64,000 bases of DNA from Planctomycetota bacterium (GTDB lineage Bacteria > Planctomycetota > Planctomycetia > Pirellulales > Lacipirellulaceae), in NCBI GenBank assembly GCA_013152205.1, contig JAADGV010000054.1, positions 124,001 to 188,000 on the forward strand, written 5' to 3'. Position numbers and translations under genes: made by a program. Positions 1,355-61,602 of the stretch are shown here, in pieces. A model generated the notes under the pieces. The model saw nothing but the letters and a program-made list of their open reading frames with translations. It searched no databases and was not told where the DNA came from. Within the stretch, counting starts at the first letter, position 1. Every line of letters begins with the position of its first letter.

Positions 1355-4300
1355 ATGGACTCTCGACTCTCTGCCCTGGACCCCAACATGTTTCCTGCCG
1401 TCGATAAGAGAGAAAGTTTTTCGCAACGTGAACTTGCCATCGGTGAATTCTGGAAGTCTCAGGGCATCTACAAAAAATCACTAGCGGCCCGAGCCGAGGC
1501 GCCGCCGTTCGTATTCTACGAAGGCCCCCCCACAGCCAACGGTATGCCTCACCCCGGGCATTGCCTAACCCGTGCAATTAAAGACGTCTTTCCCCGTTAT
1601 CGCACGATGCGCGGATTTCGTTGCGAGCGCAAGGCGGGATGGGACACGCATGGGTTGCCGGTTGAAGTTGAGGTGTGCAAAGAGCTTGGCATCCATTCCA
1701 AAGAAGAGATCGAAGCCTACGGCATTGAACCGTTCATCCAAAAATGCCAACAGAGCGTCTGGCGGTACATGCAGGAATGGGAACGCCTGACCGAGCGGAT
1801 TGGTTTTTGGGTCAACCTCGAAGAAGCCTACGTCACTTACCACCAAAGCTACGTGGAAAGCGTCTGGTGGTCGCTGAAAACGCTGTTCGACCGAGACTTG
1901 CTCTACCAAGGCCATAAAATCGTCTGGTGGTGGGCACAGGGCGGCACAGCCCTATCGGCCGGCGAGGTGGGGCAGGGCTACCGCGAGGTGGCCGACCCGA
2001 GTGTGTTCGTAAAATTCCCGCTGCTGGACGACGACGGCAACAAGACCGATACGTCGCTGCTGGTCTGGACCACGACGCCATGGACGCTGCCAAGTAACCA
2101 GTTTGTAGCTGTGCATCCTGATATCTTGTACGCGACCGTTATCGATGGCGAGACGGGCGATAAGCTGGTGATGGCCAAAGACTTGGTCGAGACAATCGCG
2201 GGAAAAATGAAACGCGAGCTTGAGGTTGTGGAAACGTGCAAAGGCGCAGAGCTTGTCGGCAAACGATATTTGCCGCCCTTTGATTGTTTCTATCGAAAGT
2301 ATGGAAAAACCACTGCAAGTCTTCAGAGATTAGATTTCGGAGGCAGTGACTTAGAAGACCTTGCGGAAATGCAAGTCAGCAGGGGGCTGTCTCAGTCCGG
2401 CTTGGGGACCGAAACCGTCGGGAGAGTAATAAATCGATACAAAGAGTTATACGAACAATCGAATACGGCTTCGATCGCTTGGCGAATCGTTCCTGCTGGG
2501 TTTGTGACGACCGAAAGCGGTTCGGGTATCGTCCATCAGGCACCTGCATTTGGTGAAGTTGATTACGATGTACTTCGAGATCAGAAGGTCCGCTTTGAAG
2601 GTGATGGCCCGCAACTTATTAACTGCGTTGCCCCGACAGGAAAATTCACCGACGAGGCCCCTGAGTTCGTCCGTGGTCGTTGGGTAAAAGATTGCGACAA
2701 AGACATCAACCGCGATCTCAAACAACGTGGTCTGCTCTATCACCTTGAACAGTATCGCCACGACTATCCGTTCTGTTGGCGAGCCGAGGAAGATCCGCTT
2801 ATTCAATATCCGCGCGAAAGCTGGTTCATCCGTACGACTTCGTACAAAGACCAGATGCTTGAGAACAACAGCAAGATCAATTGGCTGCCCGAGCATATCA
2901 AGGATGGGCGATTTGGTAAGTTCCTGGGGTCGAACGTCGATTGGGCGTTAAGCCGTGAGCGGTATTGGGGCACGCCGTTGCCAATTTGGGTTTGTCAGGA
3001 AACGGGCCAGAAGGAAGCCATCGGCAGCTACGAAGAGTTACTCGACAAACCGGGCATCACGGGAACGGAAGTCTGGGACGAAGCCAAAGCAGCGAACCCT
3101 GAATTGCCGGACGATCTTCGGGTTCATAAGCCGTATATCGATGCGGTGACCTACGATTCGCCATTTGCCAAGAGTGCGCGGATGGAGCGCGTCACCGAGG
3201 TGATCGACTGCTGGTACGATTCGGGAGCGATGCCATTCGCCCAATGGGGCTATCGGGGCCAAGAATCCGGCCCAGAACGCGAGCGTTTCGAGAGCCAATT
3301 CCCCGCCGACTTTATCAGCGAAGCGCTCGACCAAACTCGCGGGTGGTTTTATAGCCAGTTAGCGATTAGCACGTTGCTTTGGGGAAATGACGAAGCACGA
3401 ATGACGAATGACGAACCAAAAAATTCGACATTCGACATTCGACATTCGTCATTCCCCTACCCTCATCCTTTCCGCAACTGCATCGTCCTCGGCCTTATGC
3501 TCGGCGAAGATGGGCAGAAGATGTCCAAGAGTAAGCGGAACTATCGCAACCCGAGCGAAATCTTTGACCTCTACGGTGCCGATGCCCTCCGCTGGTATCT
3601 GTTTGCCAATCAGCCGCCATGGACTTCCATCCGCTATAGCGAACAGTCGATCAAAGACAGCATTCCCGAGTTCCTACTTCGGCTTTGGAACGTCTACAGC
3701 TTTTTTACTATCTATGCCAATATCGATGAATTCGAACCTGGGGAAGAGGTCGGAGGTCAGAGGTCAGAGGTCGGTGAGTTGGACGCTGTGGAACTTTCTG
3801 CTGCAAAATCCTATCGTCCTGCCGCCGATCGGAGTGAGCTTGATCGTTGGATTCTCAGCGAACTGAATACCACCGTGGCGAAGGTGGTCGAGCGGATGGA
3901 CGAGTACGACAACTACGTGGCCTGTCAGGCAATCACGGAGTTTGTCGACGCCCTTTCCAACTGGTATGTCCGCCGTAGTCGCGATCGGTTTTGGGCCAGC
4001 GACAAGCGATCGCCTGAAAAGTTGGACGCCTATTGGACGCTTTACGAATGTTTGCTTACCACCAGCAAGCTGATTGCACCGTTTGTACCGTTTTTGGCTG
4101 AAAGCCTTTGGCAAAAACTTGCCGTGTCGGTATTTGGCGACCGTGTTGCCGAGAGCGTTCACCTTTGCGATTATCCGACTAGCGACGCGACAGCAACTGA
4201 CGAAGCCCTTTCGGCACGCATGAATTTGGTGCGGCACATTTCTTCGCTGGGCCGTCAGGCACGCAGCAGCGCCGAGCTTAAAGTTCGTCAACCTCTGGCG

Positions 4301-13680: not shown

Positions 13681-14784
13681 ATGGGTACCATACTTATCGA
13701 TAAACTGCTTGCTGCTCAGGTAAAGCAGAACGCAAGCGATTTGCATATCACGGTCGGCCAACCGCCCGTGTTGCGGCTCCACGGGCGCATGCAAAAGCTC
13801 AAGACCAAAGTCCTTGAGGCTTCTGACACCATGGGCCTGATGAAAAGCATCACGCCCGACCGTTGCCAGCAAGAATTCCAAGAAACCGGTAGTACCGACT
13901 TCGGATTCGCCTTTGGCGACCAAGCGCGTTTTCGTGTCTCGGTCTTTCGCCAACGCGGCAATGTTGCTCTCGTCTTGCGGCAAATCCCGGTCGACTTGAT
14001 GTCAATGGAACAACTCTCCGTCCCGACGATCTTCAAAGACCTTATCATGCGTCCTCGAGGGCTAATCCTGGTCACCGGGCCTACCGGTTCCGGCAAATCC
14101 ACCTCGCTCGCCGCAATGGTCGACTATATCAACGATACGGTTGATCACCACATCATCACCATCGAAGACCCCATCGAGTTCTACCACAACCACAAGAAAT
14201 CGACGATCAACCAACGCGAAGTTGGCACCGATGTCACCTCGTTTGCCGAAGCCATTCGGCGTGCCCTTCGACAAGACCCCGACGTCATCCTCGTTGGCGA
14301 GATGCGCGACCTCGAAACCATCGAAGCGGCTATCACCGCCGCTGAAACAGGTCACGTTGTTTTCGGCACGCTGCATACGTCGAGCGCCGCCGGTACGATC
14401 AACCGCGTGATCGATGTTTTCCCCACCAACCAGCAAGACCAGATTCGCACCCAATTGGCGACTTCGATTATTGGCATCCTAGCCCAACAGCTTTGCCCAC
14501 GTATCGGAGGGGGCCGTATTGCTGCGTTCGAAACGTTGGTCGTCACTCCCGGTATCGCCAACTTGATTCGCGAAAACAAAATCTTCCGTATTACCTCGGC
14601 AATCCAAACCGGTTCGAAGCACGGCATGCAGTTGCTCGACGACCACCTTTTCTCGCACTGGAAAGACGAACTCGTCACCAAAGAAGATGTACTCGCCAAA
14701 GCCAATACCCCCGACGAATTAGCAAAACGAATTGCCGCAGCTGAGCGCGGGGCATTCGAAGAAGACCCCGACGCGATGGAATAG
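13681..14784 (+). CDS. pilT: PilT family twitching/retraction ATPase
   Basis: The 367-residue product matches PilT throughout: ASDLHITVGQPPVLRLHG at the N-terminus, Walker A GPTGSGKS at 133-140, ITIEDPIEF (Asp box), ILVGEMRDLET (Walker B), FGTLHTSSA (His box) and a C-terminal retraction domain with IAAFE and IRENKI. It lacks the tetracysteine zinc site of GspE/PilB. In type IV pili PilT depolymerises the filament. Its presence between two GspE genes suggests that this machine can retract, unlike a classical type II secretion system. Confidence 0.94.
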   Translation: MGTILIDKLLAAQVKQNASDLHITVGQPPVLRLHGRMQKLKTKVLEASDTMGLMKSITPDRCQQEFQETGSTDFGFAFGDQARFRVSVFRQRGNVALVLRQIPVDLMSMEQLSVPTIFKDLIMRPRGLILVTGPTGSGKSTSLAAMVDYINDTVDHHIITIEDPIEFYHNHKKSTINQREVGTDVTSFAEAIRRALRQDPDVILVGEMRDLETIEAAITAAETGHVVFGTLHTSSAAGTINRVIDVFPTNQQDQIRTQLATSIIGILAQQLCPRIGGGRIAAFETLVVTPGIANLIRENKIFRITSAIQTGSKHGMQLLDDHLFSHWKDELVTKEDVLAKANTPDELAKRIAAAERGAFEEDPDAME

Positions 14785-14848
14785 CCGTCGCCCCCGGCGA
14801 CTTCGCCCTTCAATACACACACCTAAAACCTAAAGATAGCAGACAACC

Positions 14849-16564
14849 ATGGCCTTACGTCGAATTGGTCAAATCCTGGTCGACCTCGGATACGTCTCCG
14901 ACGAGCAACTCGAATTATTGCTCGATGAGCAAAAAGAACGCCCTGGCCAAATGCTCGGTCAAGTGGCCATGGACATGGGCCTCATCACCGACGACCAACT
15001 TGCCCAAGCCCTGGGCGAGCAAATGTCGCTGCGTACCGTCGGCCTCGGCGACCTTACCATCAAGCCCGAGGTTCTCGAAAAAGTCACCGAGCCGATGGCG
15101 CAAATGTATCGCATCGTCCCCATCGAATTCGAGGACGATACACTCACCGTTGCCATGTGCGACCCACAAAACCTCGGCGTACAAGACGAGCTTCGCACCT
15201 TCCTCGGTTTCAATATCGCTGTTGTGGTCGCAACCGAGCCGGCCGTTATTGCTGCCCTCGACCGATACTACGGCGAAAACACCGAAAGCGTCGAAAGCAT
15301 TGTTTCCGACCTGGAAGCCGACACCGACCTGGCCGCCGCAGTTGCTGCTGCCGAAAGTGGCGCGGTCGACCTCACCAGTGTCGAAGCGCTCGCCGACAGT
15401 GCCCCCGTGCGAAAACTGCTCAACATGGTCCTCTTGCTGGCCATCAAAGATCACGCCAGCGATTTACACTTCGAACCTTTCGAAGACGAGTTCCGAATTC
15501 GTATCAAAGCCGACGGCGTCTTGTACGAAATGGTGCCCCCGCCGCGCCACTTGGCTTTTGCCATCACCACGCGCATCAAAGTCATGGCCGACCTCGACAT
15601 TGCCGAACGCCGACTCCCCCAAGACGGACGGATCGAACTCAATGTCGGCGGACACCCGGTCGACCTTCGCGTTAGCGTTCTCCCCACCATGTTCGGCGAA
15701 AGCGTCGTCATGCGGGTACTCGACCGTTCCGTCGTTTCGCTCGACCTGGGCAACGTCGGCATGGACGACGACATGATGGCCATCTTCCGCGATGTCATCT
15801 CCAAGCCCAATGGTATTGTCCTTGTCACTGGCCCTACCGGATCGGGAAAAACCACGACGCTTTACTCCGCGCTCAACGAACTCAATTGCATCGAAGACAA
15901 ACTCATCACCACCGAAGATCCGGTGGAGTACGACATGGATGGCATCATCCAAGTGCCCATCGATGCTTCGATCGGCAATACCTTTGCCGTTTGCCTACGG
16001 GCAATTCTCCGCCAAGACCCCGACAAAATCTTGGTGGGCGAAATCCGCGATATCGAAACGGCCGAAATTGCTATCCAAGCTTCGCTTACCGGCCACATCG
16101 TATTCAGCACGCTGCATACCAACGACGCCCCAAGCACCATCACACGTCTCAAAGACATGGGCGTGCCGACGTTCCTCCTCACGGCAACGGTCGAAGCGAT
16201 CCTTGCCCAACGTCTGGTACGCCGCGTTTGTACGAAGTGTCGCGAAGAATATGCCCCCTCGCGCGAGATACTCGACGACCTCGAGCTTACCCCCAAAGAC
16301 CTCAAAGGCAAGAAATTCTACCGCGGCGGGGGCTGCGAAAACTGCAATAGTACCGGCTACAAAGGTCGCGTCGGCCTATTCGAACTGATGATTATGAACA
16401 ACGCGCTTCGCGAATTGATTATGCAAAATGCCTCGACCGACGAACTCCGCAAAGTTGCCCAAAAAAGCGGTATGATTACCCTACGAGATGCCGGCATGGC
16501 CGCCGCCTATCAAGGTATTACAACGCCCGAAGAAGTCATCCGAGAAACCATCGTCGATGCGTAG
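14849..16564 (+). CDS. gspE: GspE/PilB family assembly ATPase, second copy
   Basis: The 571-residue paralogue of the 11.5-kb gene has the same architecture: GspE N-terminal domain (MALRRIGQILVDLGYVSDEQL, with GQMLGQVAMDMGLI), an Ala/Asp-rich linker, Walker A GPTGSGKT at 328-335, ILVGEIRDIETAE, STLHTNDAPS and zinc cysteines CTKC and CENCNSTGYKGR. It starts 64 bp after pilT. The high third-position G+C makes long false frames in all other phases here (for example 14865-15776). Two extension ATPases in one cluster could serve different filaments or form a mixed motor. Confidence 0.93.
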   Translation: MALRRIGQILVDLGYVSDEQLELLLDEQKERPGQMLGQVAMDMGLITDDQLAQALGEQMSLRTVGLGDLTIKPEVLEKVTEPMAQMYRIVPIEFEDDTLTVAMCDPQNLGVQDELRTFLGFNIAVVVATEPAVIAALDRYYGENTESVESIVSDLEADTDLAAAVAAAESGAVDLTSVEALADSAPVRKLLNMVLLLAIKDHASDLHFEPFEDEFRIRIKADGVLYEMVPPPRHLAFAITTRIKVMADLDIAERRLPQDGRIELNVGGHPVDLRVSVLPTMFGESVVMRVLDRSVVSLDLGNVGMDDDMMAIFRDVISKPNGIVLVTGPTGSGKTTTLYSALNELNCIEDKLITTEDPVEYDMDGIIQVPIDASIGNTFAVCLRAILRQDPDKILVGEIRDIETAEIAIQASLTGHIVFSTLHTNDAPSTITRLKDMGVPTFLLTATVEAILAQRLVRRVCTKCREEYAPSREILDDLELTPKDLKGKKFYRGGGCENCNSTGYKGRVGLFELMIMNNALRELIMQNASTDELRKVAQKSGMITLRDAGMAAAYQGITTPEEVIRETIVDA

Positions 16565-16599
16565 GTAGGGGAGGGGAGAGGTCAGAGAAATTTATCAAT

Positions 16600-16700
16600 A
16601 GTTATTTTTCAATCGTCATTGGTCATTGGAAATGGGAAAGAAGGATGAGAGGGAAACAGATGGCCAATGAAAAATGAGAATTAACAAATGACAAATGCTT
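16600..16700. repeat. CATTGG/CCAATG inverted repeat tract
   Basis: TCATTGGTCATTGG in the left half and GGCCAATGAAAAATGA in the right half are inverted and surrounded by other ATGACAAATG-type words. It fills the gap between the second gspE and gspF. Confidence 0.45.
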
Positions 16701-16762
16701 TACGCCAACTTCCTGGGCGAAACTAATTCCCTAAACAACCCCCAACCCCGCTCCCCCCTGCT

Positions 16763-18088
16763 ATGCCCACTTTTCAATTTGAAGCGATGGATTCGACCGG
16801 CGCTGAGATCAAAGATGTGATCGATGCGGCCACCGAAGAAGATGCGCAGGCAACCATTCGGCAGATGGGCTACTTCGTCACGAAGATCTCTGTCAAAAAA
16901 GCCCGCAAACAAGCGACCGCGGCAAAAGGCGGAAAAAAACGCGGCTTCGTCTTTGGGGGCGTCAGCTCAAAGGATCTCACCGCTTTCACCCGACAGCTTT
17001 CGATCCTTCAAGATGCAGGCTTGCCCATCCTCCGCAGCCTCCGAATTCTGGGCGAACAAGCCAAGCCAGGACGCCTCAAATACTCGGTCGAAGACACCTG
17101 TGAAGCCATTGAAAGCGGCGACACCCTCTCCGAAGGATTGGCCAAGTGCCCCAAAGCCTTCGATCGACTCTACGTCAACATGATCAAAGCCGGCGAAGCG
17201 GGCGGTGCTCTCGAACTGATCCTCCAACGTCTCGCCGACTTCAAAGAACGGTCCGAATCGCTCAAGCGGAAAGTAAAGGGCGCGATGATCTACCCGATCG
17301 TCGTTATCTCGGTCGCCGTCGGTATCCTTACCTTCATCATGATCAGCGTGGTTCCTTCTTTTGTCGAAATCTTTGCCGATTTCGATCTCGAACTACCGCC
17401 CATGACGATCGCCCTCATGGCTTTCTCCAATTGGTGTGTCAACTATTGGTATCTCATACCCGGCGTACCGATTACCGTTTGGCTTACCATCAAACTCATT
17501 CGCAAGTTCAAAGCGGGACGCGCTGGCTGGGACCAATTCATTATCAAAGTTCCCATCTTTGGAAACTTGATCGAAAAAAATATCATGGCCCGTACGTCGC
17601 GGACCCTCGGCACACTCATTGCCAGCGGCGTTCCTATTCTCGAAGCTCTCAACATTACCCGCGAAACCAGCGGCAACGCTGTCTTCGAAAAACTATACGC
17701 CCGTGTCAGCGAACGCATCCGAGAGGGCGATTCCATTGCCCAACCCTTGAAAGAGTATTCACGACTCTCTTTTCATCCGGTCGCTCTGTTTTTCTGGATC
17801 TGCTTCATCGGCGGACCGATCGGCATATTGATCTACATGATGAAATACCGCCAGCGAGTGGTCGACGATATCGTGGTCAACATGGTCGACGTCGGCGAAG
17901 AAACGGGCGAACTCGATACCATGCTCTACAAAGTCGCAGACACCTACGACGAAGAAGTCGCCGTACTTACCGACGGGCTCACCAAACTGATGGAGCCGTT
18001 GCTCATCCTGTTCCTCGGTGGTGCAGTCGGTTTTATCGTGATCGCGCTGTTTGTCCCACTCGTATCACTCATCGAGGGCCTGGCCTAA
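16763..18088 (+). CDS. gspF: GspF/PilC inner-membrane platform protein
   Basis: The 441-residue product has the two GspF domains expected of the platform that couples the ATPase to pilin extraction. The first carries FTRQLSILQDAGLPILRSL (about 75-95) and MIKAGEAGGALE; the second carries ARTSRTLGTLIASGVPILEAL and VGEETGELDTMLYKVADTYDEEV. Membrane segments lie at about 172-197, 217-245 and 415-437. An extra hydrophobic stretch (about 337-360) sits inside the second domain just before VNMVDVGEETGEL, where most GspF proteins have only a short FP loop. Long frames in other phases (17146-18132) are shadows. Confidence 0.93.
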   Translation: MPTFQFEAMDSTGAEIKDVIDAATEEDAQATIRQMGYFVTKISVKKARKQATAAKGGKKRGFVFGGVSSKDLTAFTRQLSILQDAGLPILRSLRILGEQAKPGRLKYSVEDTCEAIESGDTLSEGLAKCPKAFDRLYVNMIKAGEAGGALELILQRLADFKERSESLKRKVKGAMIYPIVVISVAVGILTFIMISVVPSFVEIFADFDLELPPMTIALMAFSNWCVNYWYLIPGVPITVWLTIKLIRKFKAGRAGWDQFIIKVPIFGNLIEKNIMARTSRTLGTLIASGVPILEALNITRETSGNAVFEKLYARVSERIREGDSIAQPLKEYSRLSFHPVALFFWICFIGGPIGILIYMMKYRQRVVDDIVVNMVDVGEETGELDTMLYKVADTYDEEVAVLTDGLTKLMEPLLILFLGGAVGFIVIALFVPLVSLIEGLA

Positions 18089-18130: not shown

Positions 18131-18208
18131 GAACCACAGAGGACGCGGAGGAACACGGAGTGCTTGAAAAAAACTTTTCTCTGCGTCCCTCCGCGCCCTC
18201 TGTGGTGA
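18131..18208. repeat. GAACCACAGAGGACGCGG hairpin repeat, copy 1
   Basis: The left arm (GAACCACAGAGGACGCGGAG) is complementary to the right arm ending CTCCGCGCCCTCTGTGG, with an A/T-rich loop. Diverged relatives are at 35454-35537 and, with a longer loop, 58147-58332. It immediately follows gspF and could act as a processing or end structure in the transcript. Confidence 0.65.
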
Positions 18209-18699: not shown

Positions 18700-19854
18700 A
18701 TGGCTTCAAATCAAAATGAGACAAGCCAATTCAGAATGCCGAATGCGGAATGTAGCCGCGATCTTACAGATCGCCGGAGGCTCCCGCGCTGCATCGCATC
18801 GCCGCTACAGGCAACCCGAAATCCAAAATCCGCATTCACCCTGACCGAGCTTCTGGTGGTGATCACCATCATCGCCGTCTTGGCCAGTCTCATCACCGTC
18901 GCCGTCGGCAACGCCCTCCGCAAAGCCAAACAAGCCGCCATCACACTCGAAATCCAACAACTCAGCGGCTCCTTCGAGGATTTTAAGAACGAATACGGAG
19001 CCTACCCGCCTAATGGGATGAATCCAGGCACTGGCATCAACAACCTCCTGGGAAACGAGATTTCTCCCATCGTGTTGAGTGATTTTAGACGCATGTTTAG
19101 AAAGGCGTTTCCACGTCACCAGGAAGATCAAGCCTTGCTTGACCGTTTAGCAGGCATAGGTGCATCGCCATTACCCGGAGGTATGACAGCCGCTGAGGCA
19201 ATGGTCTTCTGGCTGGGCGGTTTTAGTAGCGACCCACAGTTTCCGCTTTCCGGCCCTGGCGGCCCTTCGTTTGCAGATCGCACTACAGACGCTGACAATC
19301 TCTTGCTACGTGACGACGAAATATTAGAAGGCCGCAATCGCCGCTATGACTTTGACCTAGGCCGACTCGGGCCTCGCAATGCGGATGGTGTTTTTCATGA
19401 CGCGGATAATGGCGGCGAGGGAAGGTATATTATCTATACCATCGGTGGTGTTGATCGCCGTATTAACTTCTGGCAATACGCTCCCAATGCTTTCGAGCAG
19501 CCGTTGGTGTACATCGATGTCTCGCGGCATACGCCCGAAGCATACGACATGCCTGCCCTGGGACCGATGGGAACCATGCCTATGGTCCACGCCCTTGAAA
19601 AATTGAGGGAAGGTGTTTCGGCACCTATTAATCGCAGTGATTTGGTATTCGTAAACCAGGGGAAATTCCAAATTCTTCACGCTGGCATCGACGACGCTTG
19701 GGGGACTTTTAGGCAAATGAGCCTCTCCATGCAGGTTGCTGACGGTAATGACTATCTCCAGGTGATTAGGTTCCCCGATGGCCCGTTCATCGGCGACATT
19801 GCCGACACCGTGGGGAATTTTGGAATCGGAACTTTGGCGGACGAGCAAGAATGA
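18700..19854 (+). CDS. Type II secretion/pilin-like prepilin 1 (GspG-like)
   Basis: The start is ATG 18700, with AGGAGG at 18684-18689. After an unusually long 45-residue leader comes AFTLTELLVVITIIAVLASL, the type III signal with Phe+1 and Glu+5, processed by a prepilin peptidase (Ala rather than Gly at -1). The following helix and FEDFKNEYGAYPPNG resemble GspG, but the 384-residue length is far above typical GspG. The leader is translated from repeat DNA (CAGAATGCCGAATGCGGAATG and a TCTTACAGA palindrome). It overlaps the next gene by ATGA and is the first of five linked pilin-like genes. Confidence 0.88.
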   Translation: MASNQNETSQFRMPNAECSRDLTDRRRLPRCIASPLQATRNPKSAFTLTELLVVITIIAVLASLITVAVGNALRKAKQAAITLEIQQLSGSFEDFKNEYGAYPPNGMNPGTGINNLLGNEISPIVLSDFRRMFRKAFPRHQEDQALLDRLAGIGASPLPGGMTAAEAMVFWLGGFSSDPQFPLSGPGGPSFADRTTDADNLLLRDDEILEGRNRRYDFDLGRLGPRNADGVFHDADNGGEGRYIIYTIGGVDRRINFWQYAPNAFEQPLVYIDVSRHTPEAYDMPALGPMGTMPMVHALEKLREGVSAPINRSDLVFVNQGKFQILHAGIDDAWGTFRQMSLSMQVADGNDYLQVIRFPDGPFIGDIADTVGNFGIGTLADEQE

Positions 19855-20975
19855 ATACCCAAAGCGGAAAGACGAAAGTGGAAAGCCGATTTAGCCGCGA
19901 TGCTACGCATCGCCGGCGATGCGTAGCATCGCGGCTACAAACACTCCACACTCCACGCTCTCCCTTCCGCATTCCGCATTCCGACTTCCGACTTGGCCTA
20001 ACCCTCATCGAGTTGCTCGTCACCATCACCATCATTGCCACACTCAGCGCCGCCTTCCTCGGCGCCAGCCAAAGCGCAATGGAAGCCGCCCGAGCAGCAA
20101 GAACAAAAACCACCATCGGAAAAATACACGGCCTACTCATGGAACAATGGGCTTCGTATGCCACCCGTCGCGTGGATGTGGATACGAGCGCTTTTGCCAA
20201 TCTCACCGGCCAACAATTGGCTGAGATCCGATTAGCAGCCACTAGAAGCTTAATGAAGCTTGAAATGCCTGACCGATGGAGCGATCTACTTGGTGGTAGC
20301 ACTGCAATTAGTGGCGCAGTTAATAATGCCCTCCCTGGGTCACCTGCTGCATTGCCTCCACAAGTTAAACCCCTAGGACTGCCGTTTCCAGGACTTCCGG
20401 CCCCATTATTGTCGGCCACTCAATTTGGTAATTTACGAGTCACTTATCCATCACTCGCAAAAGCGTATTTACGCCGCTACAACAACCTTACACCCCCGGA
20501 TACAAGTGACATCACGAAAAATCAAGGCGCCGAGTGCCTTTACATGATTATCATGTTAGCCACCGGTGATGGCGAGGCACGCACATTTTTCGGCCCGCAA
20601 GACATAGGCGACACCGACGGCGATGGTGCCCCTGAGTTCCTTGATGGATGGGGGCAGCCGATTCAATTTATCCGCTGGCCAGCGGGTTTCGCACTTAGCT
20701 CATTGATGTCTGGTGACCCTGACACGGATCACGATTCGTTTGACCATTTTAGACGCGACCTTAGTGCATACAGGCTTGTCCCGCTGATTTACTCCGCGGG
20801 TCCAGATGCCGTTAGCGATCTGGTTGAAGGTGAGAATGCCGAAGTTGGTTTGGCCCCCTATCTTTTTGCATATGGTACAGCGAATCTCCAAATGGGCACT
20901 CCGTATGATGACAACTCAGATGGCGACGAAAACTGGCACGACAACATTCACAACCACTTGCAAGACAACCGGTAG
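19851..20975 (+). CDS. Prepilin-like protein 2
   Basis: The 374-residue product has a 49-residue leader ending RLG, then LTLIELLVTITIIATLSAAF with Glu+5, so cleavage after Gly49 is expected. The globular part is planctomycete-specific, with Asp-rich segments (DTDGDGAPEFLDGWGQ). The leader contains the translation of a perfect 46-bp palindrome at 19892-19937. No alternative start codon lies between the palindrome and the signal, so the palindrome must be translated. The start overlaps the stop of prepilin 1 (ATGA). Confidence 0.85.
   Translation: MNTQSGKTKVESRFSRDATHRRRCVASRLQTLHTPRSPFRIPHSDFRLGLTLIELLVTITIIATLSAAFLGASQSAMEAARAARTKTTIGKIHGLLMEQWASYATRRVDVDTSAFANLTGQQLAEIRLAATRSLMKLEMPDRWSDLLGGSTAISGAVNNALPGSPAALPPQVKPLGLPFPGLPAPLLSATQFGNLRVTYPSLAKAYLRRYNNLTPPDTSDITKNQGAECLYMIIMLATGDGEARTFFGPQDIGDTDGDGAPEFLDGWGQPIQFIRWPAGFALSSLMSGDPDTDHDSFDHFRRDLSAYRLVPLIYSAGPDAVSDLVEGENAEVGLAPYLFAYGTANLQMGTPYDDNSDGDENWHDNIHNHLQDNR
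19892..19937. repeat. Perfect 46-bp palindrome inside a prepilin leader
   Basis: TAGCCGCGATGCTACGCATC and the 3 bases after it are followed immediately by their exact reverse complement; the centre lies between 19914 and 19915, with no loop. It is coding for prepilin 2 (reading FSRDATHRRRCVASRLQ). Imperfect relatives (CCGCGATCTTACAGATCG) occur in the leaders of prepilins 1 and 4. Confidence 0.9.
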
Positions 20976-20981
20976 GGATGT

Positions 20982-22328
20982 TTGATGTTTAATGTGAAAT
21001 GGTTAATGTTTGAAAGCAGAGGTTGCCCGCGGTCGCAGTGCGCGCCTCGCACATCAACAATCAAACATCAAACATCAAACATCAAACGCCCCGCGTTGAC
21101 CCTCATCGAATTGCTAGTCGTTATCATCATCCTCACAACGCTGGTGGCCGGGGTGATTCCGGTTTTGTCGCCGAACAACGATGCCCGAAAAATCCGCGAA
21201 GCCTCGCGCGGCTTGCAAAGCTACATCATGCTAGCCCAATCCAAAGCCGCCCAAACCGGCCGCCCCCACGGCATCGCCTTCCGAGAATCGGCCCCCGGCG
21301 TCGCCCTCGACGTCTTTCAGTTGGAAGTCCCACCACCCTTTGCGGGGTTTAGTAGTGCATCAGCGGCACGAATCATTCGAGAAGAGTTTCCAGCCGGTTC
21401 AGGCACTTTTAGGTACTACGTGCAGTTTATTTTGGCTGATACGGCAACAGGGATTCCCCCCGTCGCTTTTCCGCCGATTCTAGACTATCAACGCGATCCG
21501 GTCCCTCCCCGTTTTGTGCGCTACAAAGACGAAGTCACCATAGCTGGCACCAGATACCGATTGATTGATAAAGATTTTGACGGGAATGGAACACAGGAAA
21601 CCATTATCCCCGACGATGGTTTCTATAACATCGATATTACAATTAACAATCATAGAGAGTGGACTTTTCTTTGTGAGCCGGTCAACAACTCCGATCAAAC
21701 ATTGGCTTATGTTTATTCATACCTATCTGGCGGAAACACTTACAGCCTGACGGCCCCCAAACAGCACCAAATCATCCGTCAACCGGTTAACTCACCCGAA
21801 TCGCCCTACCAGCTACCAGCCGGCGTTGCGATTGATATGCAAGGCTCGGTCACCGAAGGGAGCAGCGTCCCCGGTCGATTTCCTACGAACAGTTCTTTAT
21901 TCGTACCCGGGGGAACACTCGACACCGTCGGCATCATGTTTTCGCCTACGGGTAGTGTGAGCAGCGTTTATCTCAACGGCACTTTGCTAACCAGCGTCTC
22001 GCGGCTCGTGCTGTTGATGGGCCGCGTCGAAAACGGGGGGCTCATTGGCGGCCCCACAGGCCCACCCGCTTACAATAACGCCGAATGGACTATTGCTTCG
22101 GGCGCTTCGAACGACGTACTTTCAGAACTGCAAGAAAAAATCAACTGGCTAAATCTCGACACTCGTTGGCTTTCGATAGCCGCCAGCTCGGGCCGCGTCG
22201 TTGTTACCGAAAATGCTTTTGTAGACGCAAGGGCTTTTGGAGGCGATCCTGCCCTCTTGCAAGTCGAACGACAACTCGAAGCGGCCCACCAGTTTGCTCA
22301 TGAGATGAAGACAGGGGGCGGAGGATGA
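20982..22328 (+). CDS. Prepilin-like protein 3 (GspH-like)
   Basis: The 448-residue product has a leader of about 38 residues followed by ALTLIELLVVIIILTTLVAGVIPVLSP, a class III signal with Glu+5. Downstream, DARKIREASRGLQSYIMLAQSKAAQTGRPHGI resembles the GspH/FimT minor pseudopilin helix. The leader is built from ATCAAACATCAAACATC repeats, and an inverted TTTGATGTTTAATG lies at the start codon. It starts 6 bp after prepilin 2 and overlaps prepilin 4 by ATGA, so all belong to one transcript. Confidence 0.86.
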   Translation: MMFNVKWLMFESRGCPRSQCAPRTSTIKHQTSNIKRPALTLIELLVVIIILTTLVAGVIPVLSPNNDARKIREASRGLQSYIMLAQSKAAQTGRPHGIAFRESAPGVALDVFQLEVPPPFAGFSSASAARIIREEFPAGSGTFRYYVQFILADTATGIPPVAFPPILDYQRDPVPPRFVRYKDEVTIAGTRYRLIDKDFDGNGTQETIIPDDGFYNIDITINNHREWTFLCEPVNNSDQTLAYVYSYLSGGNTYSLTAPKQHQIIRQPVNSPESPYQLPAGVAIDMQGSVTEGSSVPGRFPTNSSLFVPGGTLDTVGIMFSPTGSVSSVYLNGTLLTSVSRLVLLMGRVENGGLIGGPTGPPAYNNAEWTIASGASNDVLSELQEKINWLNLDTRWLSIAASSGRVVVTENAFVDARAFGGDPALLQVERQLEAAHQFAHEMKTGGGG

Positions 22329-23695
22329 TCGTGCGAATGCAGAATGCAAAATGCGAAATGCGGAATGCAAATAACCGCCGCGACCGTACAGCCAATAACC
22401 GCGATCTTACAGATCGCCGGAGAAACACCACACTGCGCCAACTTCCGCAATCCGCCCCTTTCCCACTGGAGACAGGGCGCAATCCGAATTCACCGCGAAA
22501 CGCAATCTCGCTGGTCGAAATCCTCGTCTCGCTGTTCGTCCTACTGTTCGGCCTAATGGGCGTCGCCGCCATCTTCCCGGTCGGCAACCACTATGTGGTC
22601 GAAGGCGAAAAGTTCGACCTGGGCAGCAACCTCTCGCAAAACGCCTTCGAAGAACTCGGCTGCCGCGGCATGTTACGGCCCGAATTTTGGTGGTATGCCG
22701 ATCAACTTAACGCCGCTACGCCTGGGGCTCCGATGATGACCGCTGGGAGATTTCCCACCAACGACCCGGGGCATGCATTTGTGATTGACCCGCTTGGCGG
22801 AGCCGAAACATCGGTGATACCTGCAGAGCGGACTCATTTTCCTTGGTTTGCAAATGCTGGGGTAAATTCTTGGCCAGGGCCAGGGCCAGGTACTTTGACA
22901 TACCCAACTACCACAGGAATTCCTCTCCCAACAACACTCTGGCCTGTACGACGGCTCACATTGCTGCAAGCCGGGGGCCTGCCTTTCACTACTCAAGTCG
23001 CCGAGACCATCTTCCGGCTTCGCGACGATTTAGTTGTCGCTCAGCCCGAAGAAGACGATCGGCCCAGTATTCAAACGTGGGATATCAATAATAATGGTAC
23101 GGCCAACGACACAACCGATGACACCCTGCTGCGTCGTCAGTACAAGGGCGACTACACCTGGCTCGCCACCGTGGTGCCGACCACCCCACAAGCTCTTGCT
23201 GCCTTGCAACCCACCGACCCGGGCAACGCCTATGCCAACTACCGATACGACGTCTCGGTAGTCGTCTTCCGCAAACGCGACGTCACGCCCTCCCTGGCAA
23301 GCGAACGGCTGATTAAGGCTGAAATTGAGAGCGATGGCAACCTTATCCTTTTCAGCGACACAGGTGATGCTCAAGTAGATATTCAAAATGTCGACGCAGC
23401 GGTCGAAGACGTTCGCCCCGGCAATTGGATCGCCCTGGCCGGCGTCAACCAAGTCACCGGCGCTTTTATGATGAAATGGTATCGCCTGCTGTCGCTCGAT
23501 AAAGATACCAGCAGCATAATAGTGCCAAGTTTCGGTACAGGCTCCCCGCAACAAGGCCGTTTCGCCATGCTCGACGGCCCTGAATGGCCCAGTAATTCAT
23601 ATATCAATCTCCGAGCCATCATTTTGCCCGGAGCCATCAGCGTCACCACCCAAGAGCTAACCATGGAGGGCGGCTCGCTACGAAGTTTTGAATGA
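22325..23695 (+). CDS. Prepilin-like protein 4 (GspI/GspJ-like)
   Basis: The 456-residue product has the longest leader of the set, about 60 residues, before ISLVEILVSLFVLLFGLMGVAAIFPVG with Glu+5 (Ala at -1). No ATG, GTG or TTG lies between the repeat-derived leader and the signal, so the leader is obligatory. It consists of AATGCAAAATGCGAAATGCGG-type repeats followed by a CGATCTTACAGATCG palindrome. FGLMGVAAIFPVG with LSQNAFEELGCRG is characteristic of planctomycete minor pseudopilins. Its start overlaps prepilin 3. Confidence 0.85.
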   Translation: MIVRMQNAKCEMRNANNRRDRTANNRDLTDRRRNTTLRQLPQSAPFPLETGRNPNSPRNAISLVEILVSLFVLLFGLMGVAAIFPVGNHYVVEGEKFDLGSNLSQNAFEELGCRGMLRPEFWWYADQLNAATPGAPMMTAGRFPTNDPGHAFVIDPLGGAETSVIPAERTHFPWFANAGVNSWPGPGPGTLTYPTTTGIPLPTTLWPVRRLTLLQAGGLPFTTQVAETIFRLRDDLVVAQPEEDDRPSIQTWDINNNGTANDTTDDTLLRRQYKGDYTWLATVVPTTPQALAALQPTDPGNAYANYRYDVSVVVFRKRDVTPSLASERLIKAEIESDGNLILFSDTGDAQVDIQNVDAAVEDVRPGNWIALAGVNQVTGAFMMKWYRLLSLDKDTSSIIVPSFGTGSPQQGRFAMLDGPEWPSNSYINLRAIILPGAISVTTQELTMEGGSLRSFE

Positions 23696-23698
23696 GAT

Positions 23699-23772
23699 GT
23701 TTGATGTGAGATTTAAGAATTAAGATCGAGAAAATCTTCGATCATAAATCTCAAATCAAACATCAAAAGAGG
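23699..23772. repeat. TTTGATGT/ACATCAAA inverted repeat between prepilin 4 and gspK
   Basis: TTTGATGTGAGATTT pairs with AAATCTC and AACATCAAA on the right, with a nested GATCGAGAAAATCTTCGATC stem between them. It uses the same words as the leader of prepilin 3. Confidence 0.55.
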
Positions 23773-23840
23773 GGCAAAGAGTCCGGCAGAGTCGCCGGCA
23801 GAGTCGCGCCCGTAAGGAAGCGACCAAAGAAAGCAAAACC

Positions 23841-26800
23841 ATGAATAAAAAACAAAAAATAGGCGCTAGACATAAGTCGCTAGGCGCTAGTTTTTTCAGG
23901 TCACGCAGCAGCGCTCAACACACAGCTAGCGCCCAGCGCCCAGCATCTAGCGCCGCTCCTGCCTCTTCTCGCCGCGGCATCCTCCTGCTAGTCGTGCTGA
24001 GCATGCTCACGCTGTTTCTGATGATCGGCACCGCATACATCGTCACGTCCAACCAATACCGTCGCGCCCAAAAAACCTACGCCCGCGCAACCCAGGCAGC
24101 CAACGCTCCGGGCAAGCAGGGCCACCTCCTCAGCGAGGTGATGAACCAACTGCTACGCGACACCAACAACGAATTCAGCAACCTACGCTACCACAGCCTG
24201 CTACGCGACGTGTATGGCAACGATGGGTTCACAGGCGAGGTTAGCAACGCCGCTTGGGCGCCAAACACAGGCCAGCAAATTCTGCAATTTAAGCTTCCCG
24301 GGCTAACCGATCAGTTCGGCAATCTGGCAACGCTCAGTTCGATTAACAATGTGTTTAACGGCTTGGTGTTAACATTCCTCGATGGCTCTTCCCGTGGCCA
24401 AAGCACTCGCATCGTTGGCTATTTCGACGATGGCGTTGATAAAGTCTTTCGCGTGATAAGCGTACCACTCGCCAACGGTCAAACGCTGGCAACCCCGGGC
24501 AATCTCGACGGCTCACGCATCCTCATCAACGGCCGACCGTTCAACGGCACTGGCGTGGGATACAACCCAGACCCGACTGCGCCAGTAGGGTCGGCTCGAC
24601 TAAATGCAGTTGAATCGATAACGGTTGACGGGTCTCCGGTCGACGTACCAATCGCGTTGATGCCCAATGCGACATTCTTTGATTTTTCGAACGTTTCTAC
24701 GGCTGGCTACCTTCCGAGCAATAACTCTTGGGTTGGCCAAGGCGGCAGCGACGAATCGTACGACATTCCCGATTTCCAAAACATGGCACTGGCAATGCTG
24801 CCGTTGAATCCCGGTGAAAGAGCTGACTCAACCGGACAGGTCTTAGTCGAGGTGGATCCTGGGCCAGACGGAATGCTTGGGACAACAGACGACATCCAGC
24901 GACCGTTAATTATCCCATCGTTCCACCGCCCAGCGTTGTTGAACTATTGGCGGCAGCAACTACTTACGGCCGGTAGTACGTCATTAGAAGTCGAACCCAG
25001 TTTACTTCGCAAGGTACTGTTGCGACCAAACTGGTGGGACCATCCTAATTTCACTGGCAGCAATCCCGATCTGGCCAATACGGCTCAGTTGTTTGCTACT
25101 GCCTTGCGGAACAACAACACAACCGAGATAGCAAATCAGTCGGACATTTTGCTTAACTCGATGATCTACGGCCCATGGGATGTCGACAACGACAACGATG
25201 GCATTCGCGACAGCGTCTGGGTAGATTTTGGCGCCTCGGTGATGAAAGGCCCCGATGGCCGAATGGTAAAACCGCTAGCCGCCATCCTAGTGCTCGACAT
25301 GGGCGGACGGTTGAATCTCAATGCCCACGGGACGCTTGAGATGGTGAAAGCGGCTGGCAACTTACCCATAGCCAAAAGCCTAGCAGGCGGAACCCTAAGT
25401 GACGCACTAGCACGAGGCCAAGGCTGGGGCCCGGCGGAAATTAGTTTGCAGTCTGTGGTAGACAATCGTTTTGAAGTATTGCTTCAAGGCGTCGACACGA
25501 CCATTTCCAAATTTGGTGGTGGCGCCCCATTTTACGACCAAGCTTACGCTGGGAGATACGGGCTAATAAACACCATCACCAACAGAGTGCCTGGCATAAG
25601 CGGTCAATTCGGCCTTCAAGCCCAACTAAAAACGCAAGGCATTCCGAGAACTGCGAATGGAATGCTTGCCGGCAACACCATTTTGGGTAACTACGCCTCG
25701 CCACCCGACCTGTTGGGCCGGTATGCGTTGGGACTAAACAACTTCGGTCAGCCCGCTTATGAAGTGATCGACGACACGGGAACATTCGATGGTGTCGCAC
25801 TCGATCGCAATTCGCCCTACGAGCTAAATCTATCGACCAACGGACCGCGAGGGAGCAGCACCACAACCAACGACGGTGCGTTTTCGATAGCCGAGATGGA
25901 ACGCCTCTTACGAGCCTACGACGTCGACGCCGGAACCTTGCCGCCGCGAATCTGGGAACTGGCCAATGGATTTTTCCCAAATGCAACGGCAACGACGCCT
26001 GACACCACCGAGCTAAACCAATGGCGCACGTTGCTCACCACCGACAGCTACGACATGCCGGTGCCAAACGCGGTGTTGCCCGAATGGGTGAGAAATGGCC
26101 CCGACGGTATTGCCAACAATGCCGACGATTTTCTGCGAGTCATGGGCAGACCCCCAGTCCGCGCATCGTTTGCTGATCTTCTGGATTACCGACTGCGGGT
26201 AGGACTAGGTGCCGCTGATTCAGCCTTCCTCAATCCAGTCACATTCAACGCACGTCCCGCCTCTGATCCTAAGAAGAGACTGCTCCGTAGCGAAATGTCA
26301 AAACTCCTCGCCCCCGACCTCGCCGATGGCCTACGGCTCGATATCAACCGAGCAATCGGCAACGGTCGCGACGATAACAATCCCGGCGACCCCGGCTACG
26401 GCGTAGTCGACGAACCGGGCGAGAACGAAGGCGCTTTTTGGATACTTGATAGCACGAGCCCCACGCCAGTTGGTACGTCTGCATTTGTGATGCCAGCAAA
26501 CGGTCAGATTCGCGACGACATCGACCGCGATGGCCTAGACGCTACGGACAATGGAACACCAAATGACATTGAACCTTGGGAACGTGGCGACCTCGACGGC
26601 TCAGGCTCTATCGACACACTGGACGAACGCGTTGCCGTTCACAACTACCGTCGCCAGCTTTTGGCCCGGCATCTTTACGTGATGGCCATGGCGCTGGTCG
26701 ATCCGCCGCCTGCCGCAATGACAGACGCCGACAAAAACAAGCGGGCACGTCGCCTGGCCCAATGGGCGATCAACATCGTCGACTTCCGCGACCCCGACAA

Positions 26801-29901: not shown

Positions 29902-29983
<82 letters not shown>

Positions 29984-35436: not shown

Positions 35437-35453
35437 CCTATTTGAAAAAGGTT

Positions 35454-35537
35454 GAACCACAAAGGACACGAAGAGCACTATGGGGTTGGAGGACTATTGA
35501 ATTCTATTCTTTGTGTCCTTGGTGATCTTTGTGGTTC
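35454..35537. repeat. GAACCACAAAGGACAC hairpin repeat, copy 2
   Basis: The left arm GAACCACAAAGGACACGAAG and right arm GTGTCCTTGGTGATCTTTGT...GTTC are inverted. It is related to 18131-18208. Confidence 0.6.
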
Positions 35538-35668
35538 ATTTTCGGTTCATCACCTGCAACGGTTACAATTTTTTTGTAACTCCCCCCGACTAGCCAACCA
35601 ACTCGCCAAAGCGTAAGTTACCGGCTCTCACGTTTCTCAAACAAACGACTGATTAAAGACGCTTGCCA

Positions 35669-42220: not shown

Positions 42221-42605
42221 CAGGAATTTTAGTGGCTGAACATTCATCGAAGCAGCAAAGCTGCTTCTGCCCCAACGGGGCAAAACATCATAGCCTAGGG
42301 CAAGGCAAGCGAGCGTAGCGAGGCTTGCCGCCGCCCTAGGTATAAGTTTGTCTATAAGTCTTCGGCCGAGTTTGTAGCTCAGCCGATCAACGGCACGTAG
42401 CCGAGGCCGAAATTCATCCGCGGATTGATTTCGGCCTCGGCTACGCTCCGTTATTAAATTACGCCGTCCTCTCGGACGATTGTTTGGTTGCTTACTGCCC
42501 CGGGCGACGCCAACCTTTGCTGCGCTTCGGTTGGCTTTGCCCTGGGCTAACATATTTTGCCCCTTTCAGGGCATTTGTGGGTTCACCTGGCCACTAAAAT
42601 GCCTG
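42221..42605. mobile_element. 385-bp structured element with terminal inverted repeats, copy 1
   Basis: The ends CAGGAATTTTAGTGGC (42221-42236) and GCCACTAAAATGCCTG (42590-42605) are inverted with one mismatch in 16. Inside are several strong stems, including CCTAGGGCAAGGCAAGC with its return arm GCTTGCCGCCGCCCTAGG, and GAAGCAGCAAAGCTGCTTC. A 19-bp direct repeat, CTGAATACCCCTTTTTTAT, lies at 42195-42213 and 42603-42621, resembling a long target duplication. No transposase is encoded. A diverged copy is at 51100-51478. The element fills most of the 548-bp gap before the sulfatase. Confidence 0.7.
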
Positions 42606-61259: not shown

Positions 61260-61602
61260 CAGTAGTTCCAAATTTGGTGTGCAAACAGCATAGGACGTAA
61301 GTCCTTACGCCGAAGGCGTTTCACACCATAGCCCAGGGTCGCCGCGCAGCGGCGCACCCTGGGTTGCGAGTCTCCAAAATACCTCAACCCTGAAAGGGTT
61401 GCACAATCCTCGTGCTATCAAAGAATCACCTAGAAAACAGGATGTTTCGAGTTGTAGAACCCTTTCAGGGTTCTCTTGTTCTCAATCCATGGTTACCCAG
61501 GGTGGCGCAGCTACGCCGCTTACCCTGGGCTACGATGTGAAACCCCTTCGGGGTACTCGACTTACAGCAAGCCTTCTGATTGACCCAAATTTGGAACTAC
61601 TG
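61260..61602. mobile_element. 343-bp structured element with perfect terminal inverted repeats
   Basis: The ends CAGTAGTTCCAAATTTGG (61260-61277) and CCAAATTTGGAACTACTG (61585-61602) are exact inverted repeats of 18 bp. The interior has strong stems: CCCAGGGT...ACCCTGGG twice, AACCCTGAAAGGGTT, AGAACCCTTTCAGGGTTCT and ACCCCTTCGGGGT. No protein is encoded. In size and design it resembles the 42.2/51.1-kb element but shares no clear end sequence with it. Confidence 0.7.

Follow-up and report, generated by a model that had tools for sequence, protein, structure and literature searches.

Five consecutive pilin-like genes in a planctomycete genome begin with long leaders made largely of repeat DNA. 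This raises the question of what kind of repeat fills them, whether it is translated, and why it is kept ahead of a prepilin signal. The window (the whole stretch of DNA that was analysed, 64,000 nucleotides) carries upstream pilus or secretion genes at 13681..18088 (+), followed by the five genes, each with degenerate repeats in its leader.

13681-14784, + strand: PilT-type ATPase, T2SSE family (Pfam)
14849-16564, + strand: ATPase of the PilB/GspE kind (called from sequence and gene order/context only)
16763-18088, + strand: PilC, T2SSF family (Pfam)
18700..18834, + strand: gene 1 leader, 45 aa; ATG 18700 after AGGAGG, class III signal at 18835
19851..19997, + strand: gene 2 leader, 49 aa; ATG 19851, class III signal at 19998
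20985..21095, + strand: gene 3 leader, 37 aa; ATG 20985, class III signal at 21096
22325..22504, + strand: gene 4 leader, 60 aa; ATG 22325 after GGAGG, class III signal at 22505
23841..23975, + strand: gene 5 leader, 45 aa; ATG 23841, class III signal at 23976

ATGA overlaps were found at two junctions, genes 1/2 and genes 3/4. An N_methyl match (Pfam) was obtained for genes 1 to 4 (weak in gene 4, E 0.025) and was not found for gene 5, so genes 4 and 5 are called pilin-like from operon context and orthologues. The initial annotation gave leader lengths of about 45, 49, 38, 60 and 46 residues; all five leaders are indeed long, and the lengths were refined to 45, 49, 37, 60 and 45. As in other class III prepilins, these leaders precede the cleavage site, are basic and, in genes 1 to 4, end in G or A before a hydrophobic helix; they differ in their length (37-60 residues), in a composition set by repeats and in being unconserved among orthologues.

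All of the repeats named by the initial annotation were located in the five leaders. The repeat parts of this region are as follows.

18728..18752, + strand: left heptamer arm of the gene 1 leader, AATTCAGAATGCCGAATGCGGAATG (GAATGCC/GAATGCG words)
18752..18777, + strand: nested GTAG-tagged palindrome GTAGCCGCGATCTTACAGATCGCCGG, gene 1 leader
18761-18773, + strand: GATCTTACAGATC, the palindrome named earlier, gene 1 leader
about 18819-18842, + strand: degenerate right arm, gene 1 leader
19861..19889, + strand: left heptamer-like arm, gene 2 leader
19892..19937, + strand: perfect palindrome of 46 bp (dimer of GCCGCGATGCTACGCATCGC units), lying within the loop that the gene 2 heptamer arms enclose
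19941..19994, + strand: right heptamer arrays ACACTCC and TTCCGCA, gene 2 leader
20977..21087, + strand: heptamer hairpin GATGTTT...CATCAAA of gene 3, left arm overlapping the start region (fold z -3.8)
22335..22368, + strand: left heptamer arm GAATGCA/GAATGCG, gene 4 leader
22397..22422, + strand: degenerate nested palindrome ACCGCGATCTTACAGATCGCCGG, gene 4 leader, which folds as a stem
23696..23764, + strand: intercistronic heptamer hairpin, genes 4/5
23862..23954, + strand: heptamer hairpin GGCGCTAG...CTAGCGCC, gene 5 leader (fold z -3.5)

Elsewhere in the window, a near-perfect 30-bp inverted repeat (GGGTGCCACTGTCTGGCTTGCC...) lies just after gene 5 (29902-29981) and draws spurious Rfam microRNA hits, and intergenic hairpins at 18133-18206 and 35453-35538 (ACCACAGAGGACGCGGAGG and ACCACAAAGGACACGAAG) are word-like with a looser period. 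An Rfam identity for the hairpins was rejected, as hits were sub-threshold and mostly to plant or animal microRNA families.

Each leader had been described as made from a different repeat. The words do differ, but they are better described as one kind of heptameric hairpin, as all five leaders share a single design in which degenerate words of 7-base period are set in inverted repeat (purine-rich arm, loop, pyrimidine-rich arm). In the 150 nt before the signal, a period-7 score of at least 10 was reached in 53% of 112 orthologous family leader windows (imperfectly independent through shared ancestry), 0% of mature windows and 0% of dinucleotide shuffles, and only periods 7 and 14 had an effect in these 112 leaders. 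Across 19 family operons, the leaders (11.9 kb in total) contained 68 arrays, the gaps between genes (3.9 kb) another 12, and the 136 kb that encode mature domains none, at thresholds that miss degenerate copies. Arms match each other better within the same leader than across leaders (mean 17.0 versus 9.8; median rank, 5 of 55), and the purine-rich arm came first in 60 and last in 4 among 76 two-armed hairpins from all loci. Hairpin size is roughly 75-150 nt, and the loops often contain TGCGCGC. The vocabulary is limited (AATGCGG, AATCCGC, AAACATC, AATGACG, AGCGCCT and others), with 71% of 264 arrays no more than 1 base from one of 12 words, compared with 5% for random words. Nested heptamer hairpins occur in gene 3 of L070 and gene 2 of L078. 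Exact copies do not define the repeat: GAATGCGGAATGC is present in exact form only twice in the 4.6-Mb genome, and an exact-copy repeat family was rejected.

The leader repeats lie in an open frame. In the 90 nt before the signal of 59 heptamer-bearing orthologous leaders, 1 in-frame stop was counted, versus 79 in the other two frames. No start codon separates the repeats from the signal in gene 2, 4 or 5, as had been claimed for the first two of these; in genes 2 and 4 the last in-frame starts (GTG 19878 and ATG 22358, respectively) lie within the left-arm repeats, and ATG 23841 is the sole start of gene 5. The start of gene 1 (M..NQNE), upstream of the repeats, is kept in this genome, L059, L061 and L070. 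Translation of the repeats, as initially proposed, is supported by the frame test and the conserved gene 1 start. That the leaders are instead untranslated, with starts near the signal and the repeats serving as 5' untranslated or intercistronic DNA, is scarcely credible. A simple gene caller, based on codon bias, does place three starts at the signal or shortly beyond it (18856, 21096 and 23994 for genes 1, 3 and 5), but the dearth of in-frame stops, the absence from genes 2, 4 and 5 of any start that follows the repeats and precedes the signal, and the conservation of the gene 1 start together with its ribosome site all count against that arrangement.

The comparison of orthologues proposed in the initial annotation was run, and the leader proved to be near shuffled identity as protein while the mature domains were alike. 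The last 30 leader residues were mostly at the shuffled level, and the first 100 mature residues were 49-77% identical (22 pairwise comparisons); the main exception was L059, whose gene 3 also carries the word GATGTTT. The orthologues are too distant for a dN/dS estimate, and their leaders cannot be aligned. Repeat words differed between orthologues whose mature domains remained alike. Apart from staying open and basic, the leader peptide appears to be under no selection for its sequence. The median length is 40 residues for leaders with arrays and 27.5 for those without, and net charge is higher in frame (+4.4) than in the other frames (about +3.0). Both would be expected if selection favoured a longer leader for its peptide (to gain positive charge or to slow membrane insertion, for instance), with repeats as its raw material. 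We consider such selection very unlikely, given that the leader sequence is not conserved and that 10-20 residues suffice in several orthologues.

Similar hairpins are found outside pilin genes. Coding-sequence arrays besides the leaders, in the 785 kb of this genome that were compared, lie in ileS, in a tandem uvrA and, once, in an upstream extension of leuS, whose true start probably lies after the array. The ileS arrays lie in the window.

3382..3457, + strand: in-frame heptamer hairpin GAATGAC...ATTCGAC inside ileS (fold z -9.5)
3746..3772, + strand: in-frame heptamer array GAGGTCA inside ileS

At one position of the ileS loop, about eight different words were found across relatives, and the loop is shorter and wordless in most outgroup families of the order. 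The tandem (double-length) uvrA of this genome (L112:12373-19455) has seven in-frame heptamer arrays at several loops, and even a genome whose UvrA is 87% identical has different words in its uvrA loops. Site C of the L170 uvrA is a hybrid, with a new left arm and the old word kept in the right arm. The ileS match of one relative (L141; G013:C6:53714-57232) contains one in-frame TAA. Arrays were found in none of the 26 other N-methylation genes of this genome, so they are not general to prepilin signals, nor are they confined to pilins. Leaders held 7 arrays in 0.7 kb, versus 21 in 126 kb of intergenic DNA outside the operon, a density about 60 times higher; this gene-wide comparison sampled 785 kb, or ~17%, of the draft genome (130 contigs) and used a home-made gene caller that misplaced three of the five leader-gene starts. 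A further 415 kb was sampled from G006.

Similar leaders also appear in other phyla. When ~85,000 species were scanned for a single word immediately preceding FTL.E, ten stretches came up, from Omnitrophota, Verrucomicrobia, Deltaproteobacteria, Gammaproteobacteria and a planctomycete. Nine of the ten encode prepilin-type proteins, including gspG twice and the adjacent gspI and gspJ of Microbulbifer taiwanensis (L206). The Methylococcaceae stretch (L203), in which the frame ends 19 codons after the motif, is probably a chance match. A 19-base exact pattern matched 7 of 294 genomes of the phylum and is too strict to gauge spread. A search of an open-licence literature library did not find heptamer hairpins reported in prepilin leaders.

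Three known systems come close to these repeats. Rickettsia palindromic elements (RPEs; Ogata 2000, 2002) are presented in PMC10969869 as palindromic DNA that lies in frame in unrelated genes and is predicted to be translated; translated RPEs are on record (PMC10969869), and N-terminal insertions of RPE-1 are reported as expressed (PMC3733652). The leader hairpins resemble them in size (roughly 75-150 nt, for RPEs of ~100-150 bp) and as stop-free, in-frame insertions in protein genes. They differ in that each RPE family is conserved in sequence and in the peptide that it encodes, whereas heptamer words vary from copy to copy, the arms have a 7-base period, and one site holds different words in relatives. 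Neither a family consensus nor a conserved peptide of the RPE kind was found, with 98 different words in 264 arrays and leader peptides near shuffled identity. Repetitive extragenic palindromes (REPs), tagged with GTAG or CGTC, also lie in frame in open reading frames (uvrA and tRNA synthetase genes among them) and at N termini (PMC3733652), as the hairpins do here, and the palindromes nested in leaders 1 and 2 are GTAG tagged. The heptamer arms, in contrast, have neither tag nor fixed sequence: no GTAG tag stands at the stem foot, and the arms open with many words. MITEs are marked by terminal inverted repeats and a target-site duplication that match an IS; the heptamer arms are word arrays that share no terminus. 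The heptamer hairpins were not filed as RPE or REP because consensus peptide and tag were tested and are absent in the heptamer arms. Bacterial heptanucleotide repeats include TAACTGA of Beggiatoaceae (PMC4679880) and the G-rich heptamers of Xanthomonas and Nostoc (PMC4692102), which share with the present repeats a 7-base unit, a mostly intergenic location and a scatter over phyla. Those are direct arrays of one word, whereas here many degenerate words form inverted arms in frame in specific genes; periodicity was seen at 7 and 14 only, and a uniform one-word direct array was not.

Leaders 1 and 2 also contain small nested palindromes (GTAGCCGCGAT...ATCGC) that resemble REPs in having a GTAG tag, a stem and dispersed copies; matches to the untagged core numbered 33 in the genome versus 5 for the control. 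They were not found within about 2 kb of the six Y1 genes. Three Y1 genes checked for flanking inverted repeats have other palindromes, and mobilisation by RAYT was rejected, the Y1 genes of this genome being flanked by those other palindromes. Palindromes of the kind that flanks Y1 transposase genes elsewhere in the genome (L209 and L211) are present in the window at 61306-61555 and 42274-42566 (AGCCCAGGGT and CGAAGGCG).

The best explanation, to which we give a probability of roughly 0.6, is that the leaders consist of in-frame palindromic repeats that work like Rickettsia palindromic elements, outside that family, and are kept where an insert is harmless. Heptameric hairpins, with words in two inverted arms (usually purine-rich first) and other palindromes sometimes nested in the loop, would settle within genes only at positions where an insert that is in frame and free of stops is harmless. 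The segment from start codon to cleavage site would be such a place because prepilin peptidase, whose removal of the leader is established for prepilins in general, should remove it here as well; IleRS and UvrA seem to offer further harmless places in their surface loops. The inserts would be translated, and within the genus one word would give way to another at a site that retains its hairpin and its frame. The hairpins may be mobile or be regenerated locally; no mobilising enzyme or recent transposition event was seen for them, which counts against this reading. Their persistence may reflect that an insert in frame is less easily deleted than one between genes and that an existing hairpin attracts more.

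This reading takes up the earlier suggestion that the cleaved leader is a tolerated landing site, in favour of which are the unconserved leaders, the words that differ between orthologues and the in-frame elements in ileS and uvrA loops. Simple tolerance leaves something unexplained, because arrays are ~60 times denser in these leaders than in ordinary intergenic DNA and are absent from the 26 other N-methylation genes, whose leaders are expected to be cleaved too; both points stand against the best reading. The excess in leaders possibly arises because in-frame inserts resist deletion, because hairpins insert into hairpins, or because the hairpins are of use.

One such use was put forward in the initial annotation, in which hairpins tune translation along the ATGA-coupled transcript. 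Hairpins at cistron junctions would act as regulatory RNA that slows or gates the ribosome after initiation and sets the ratio of the five pilins, with structure alone selected and words free to drift. Leaders 2, 3 and 5 do fold strongly (z -7.3, -3.8 and -3.5), two junctions have ATGA overlaps, arms match within leaders and, in L078, L079 and L081, enclose the start codon of gene 1, and the arrays are enriched at junctions of this operon while absent from the 26 other N-methylation genes. Tuning is nevertheless less likely than a landing site, and unlikely overall, because leaders 1 and 4 fold no better than shuffles, about half of the family leaders lack arrays, and the same hairpins sit mid-ileS and mid-uvrA, far from starts, where tuning of initiation cannot apply. 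We give a similarly low chance to hairpins that arise and are rewritten in place, slippage spreading a word along one arm and quasipalindrome template switching copying it to the other, so that the site stays fixed and the word changes. Different words at one site in close relatives, arms that match each other, the hybrid at L170 uvrA site C and the large excess at fixed sites over intergenic DNA are all in keeping with such rewriting, but the vocabulary shared by unrelated sites and other phyla points to copying rather than drift, and nested hairpins point to insertion.

Beyond tolerated in-frame repeats, we tentatively raise a more far-reaching and rather doubtful proposal, that heptameric hairpins form a separate class of elements, selfish or self-rewriting and widely distributed, that have a vocabulary in common and a purine-first polarity. 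Such an element would reoccupy pseudopilin leaders, the IleRS loop and UvrA loops, and would swap its word while keeping complementary arms and an open frame by an undescribed, dedicated mechanism.

For annotation, the starts of such genes may be misplaced and their leaders dropped by automatic methods. For biology, the leaders would add a class of translated repeat DNA beyond that of Rickettsia, located in genes for pili and type II secretion in several phyla, and would make it possible to follow, at fixed sites, how palindromic elements are born, replaced and lost. Two questions become testable: whether repeats can freely occupy a leader that is cleaved off, and by what means a hairpin acquires a new word with its arms still matched.
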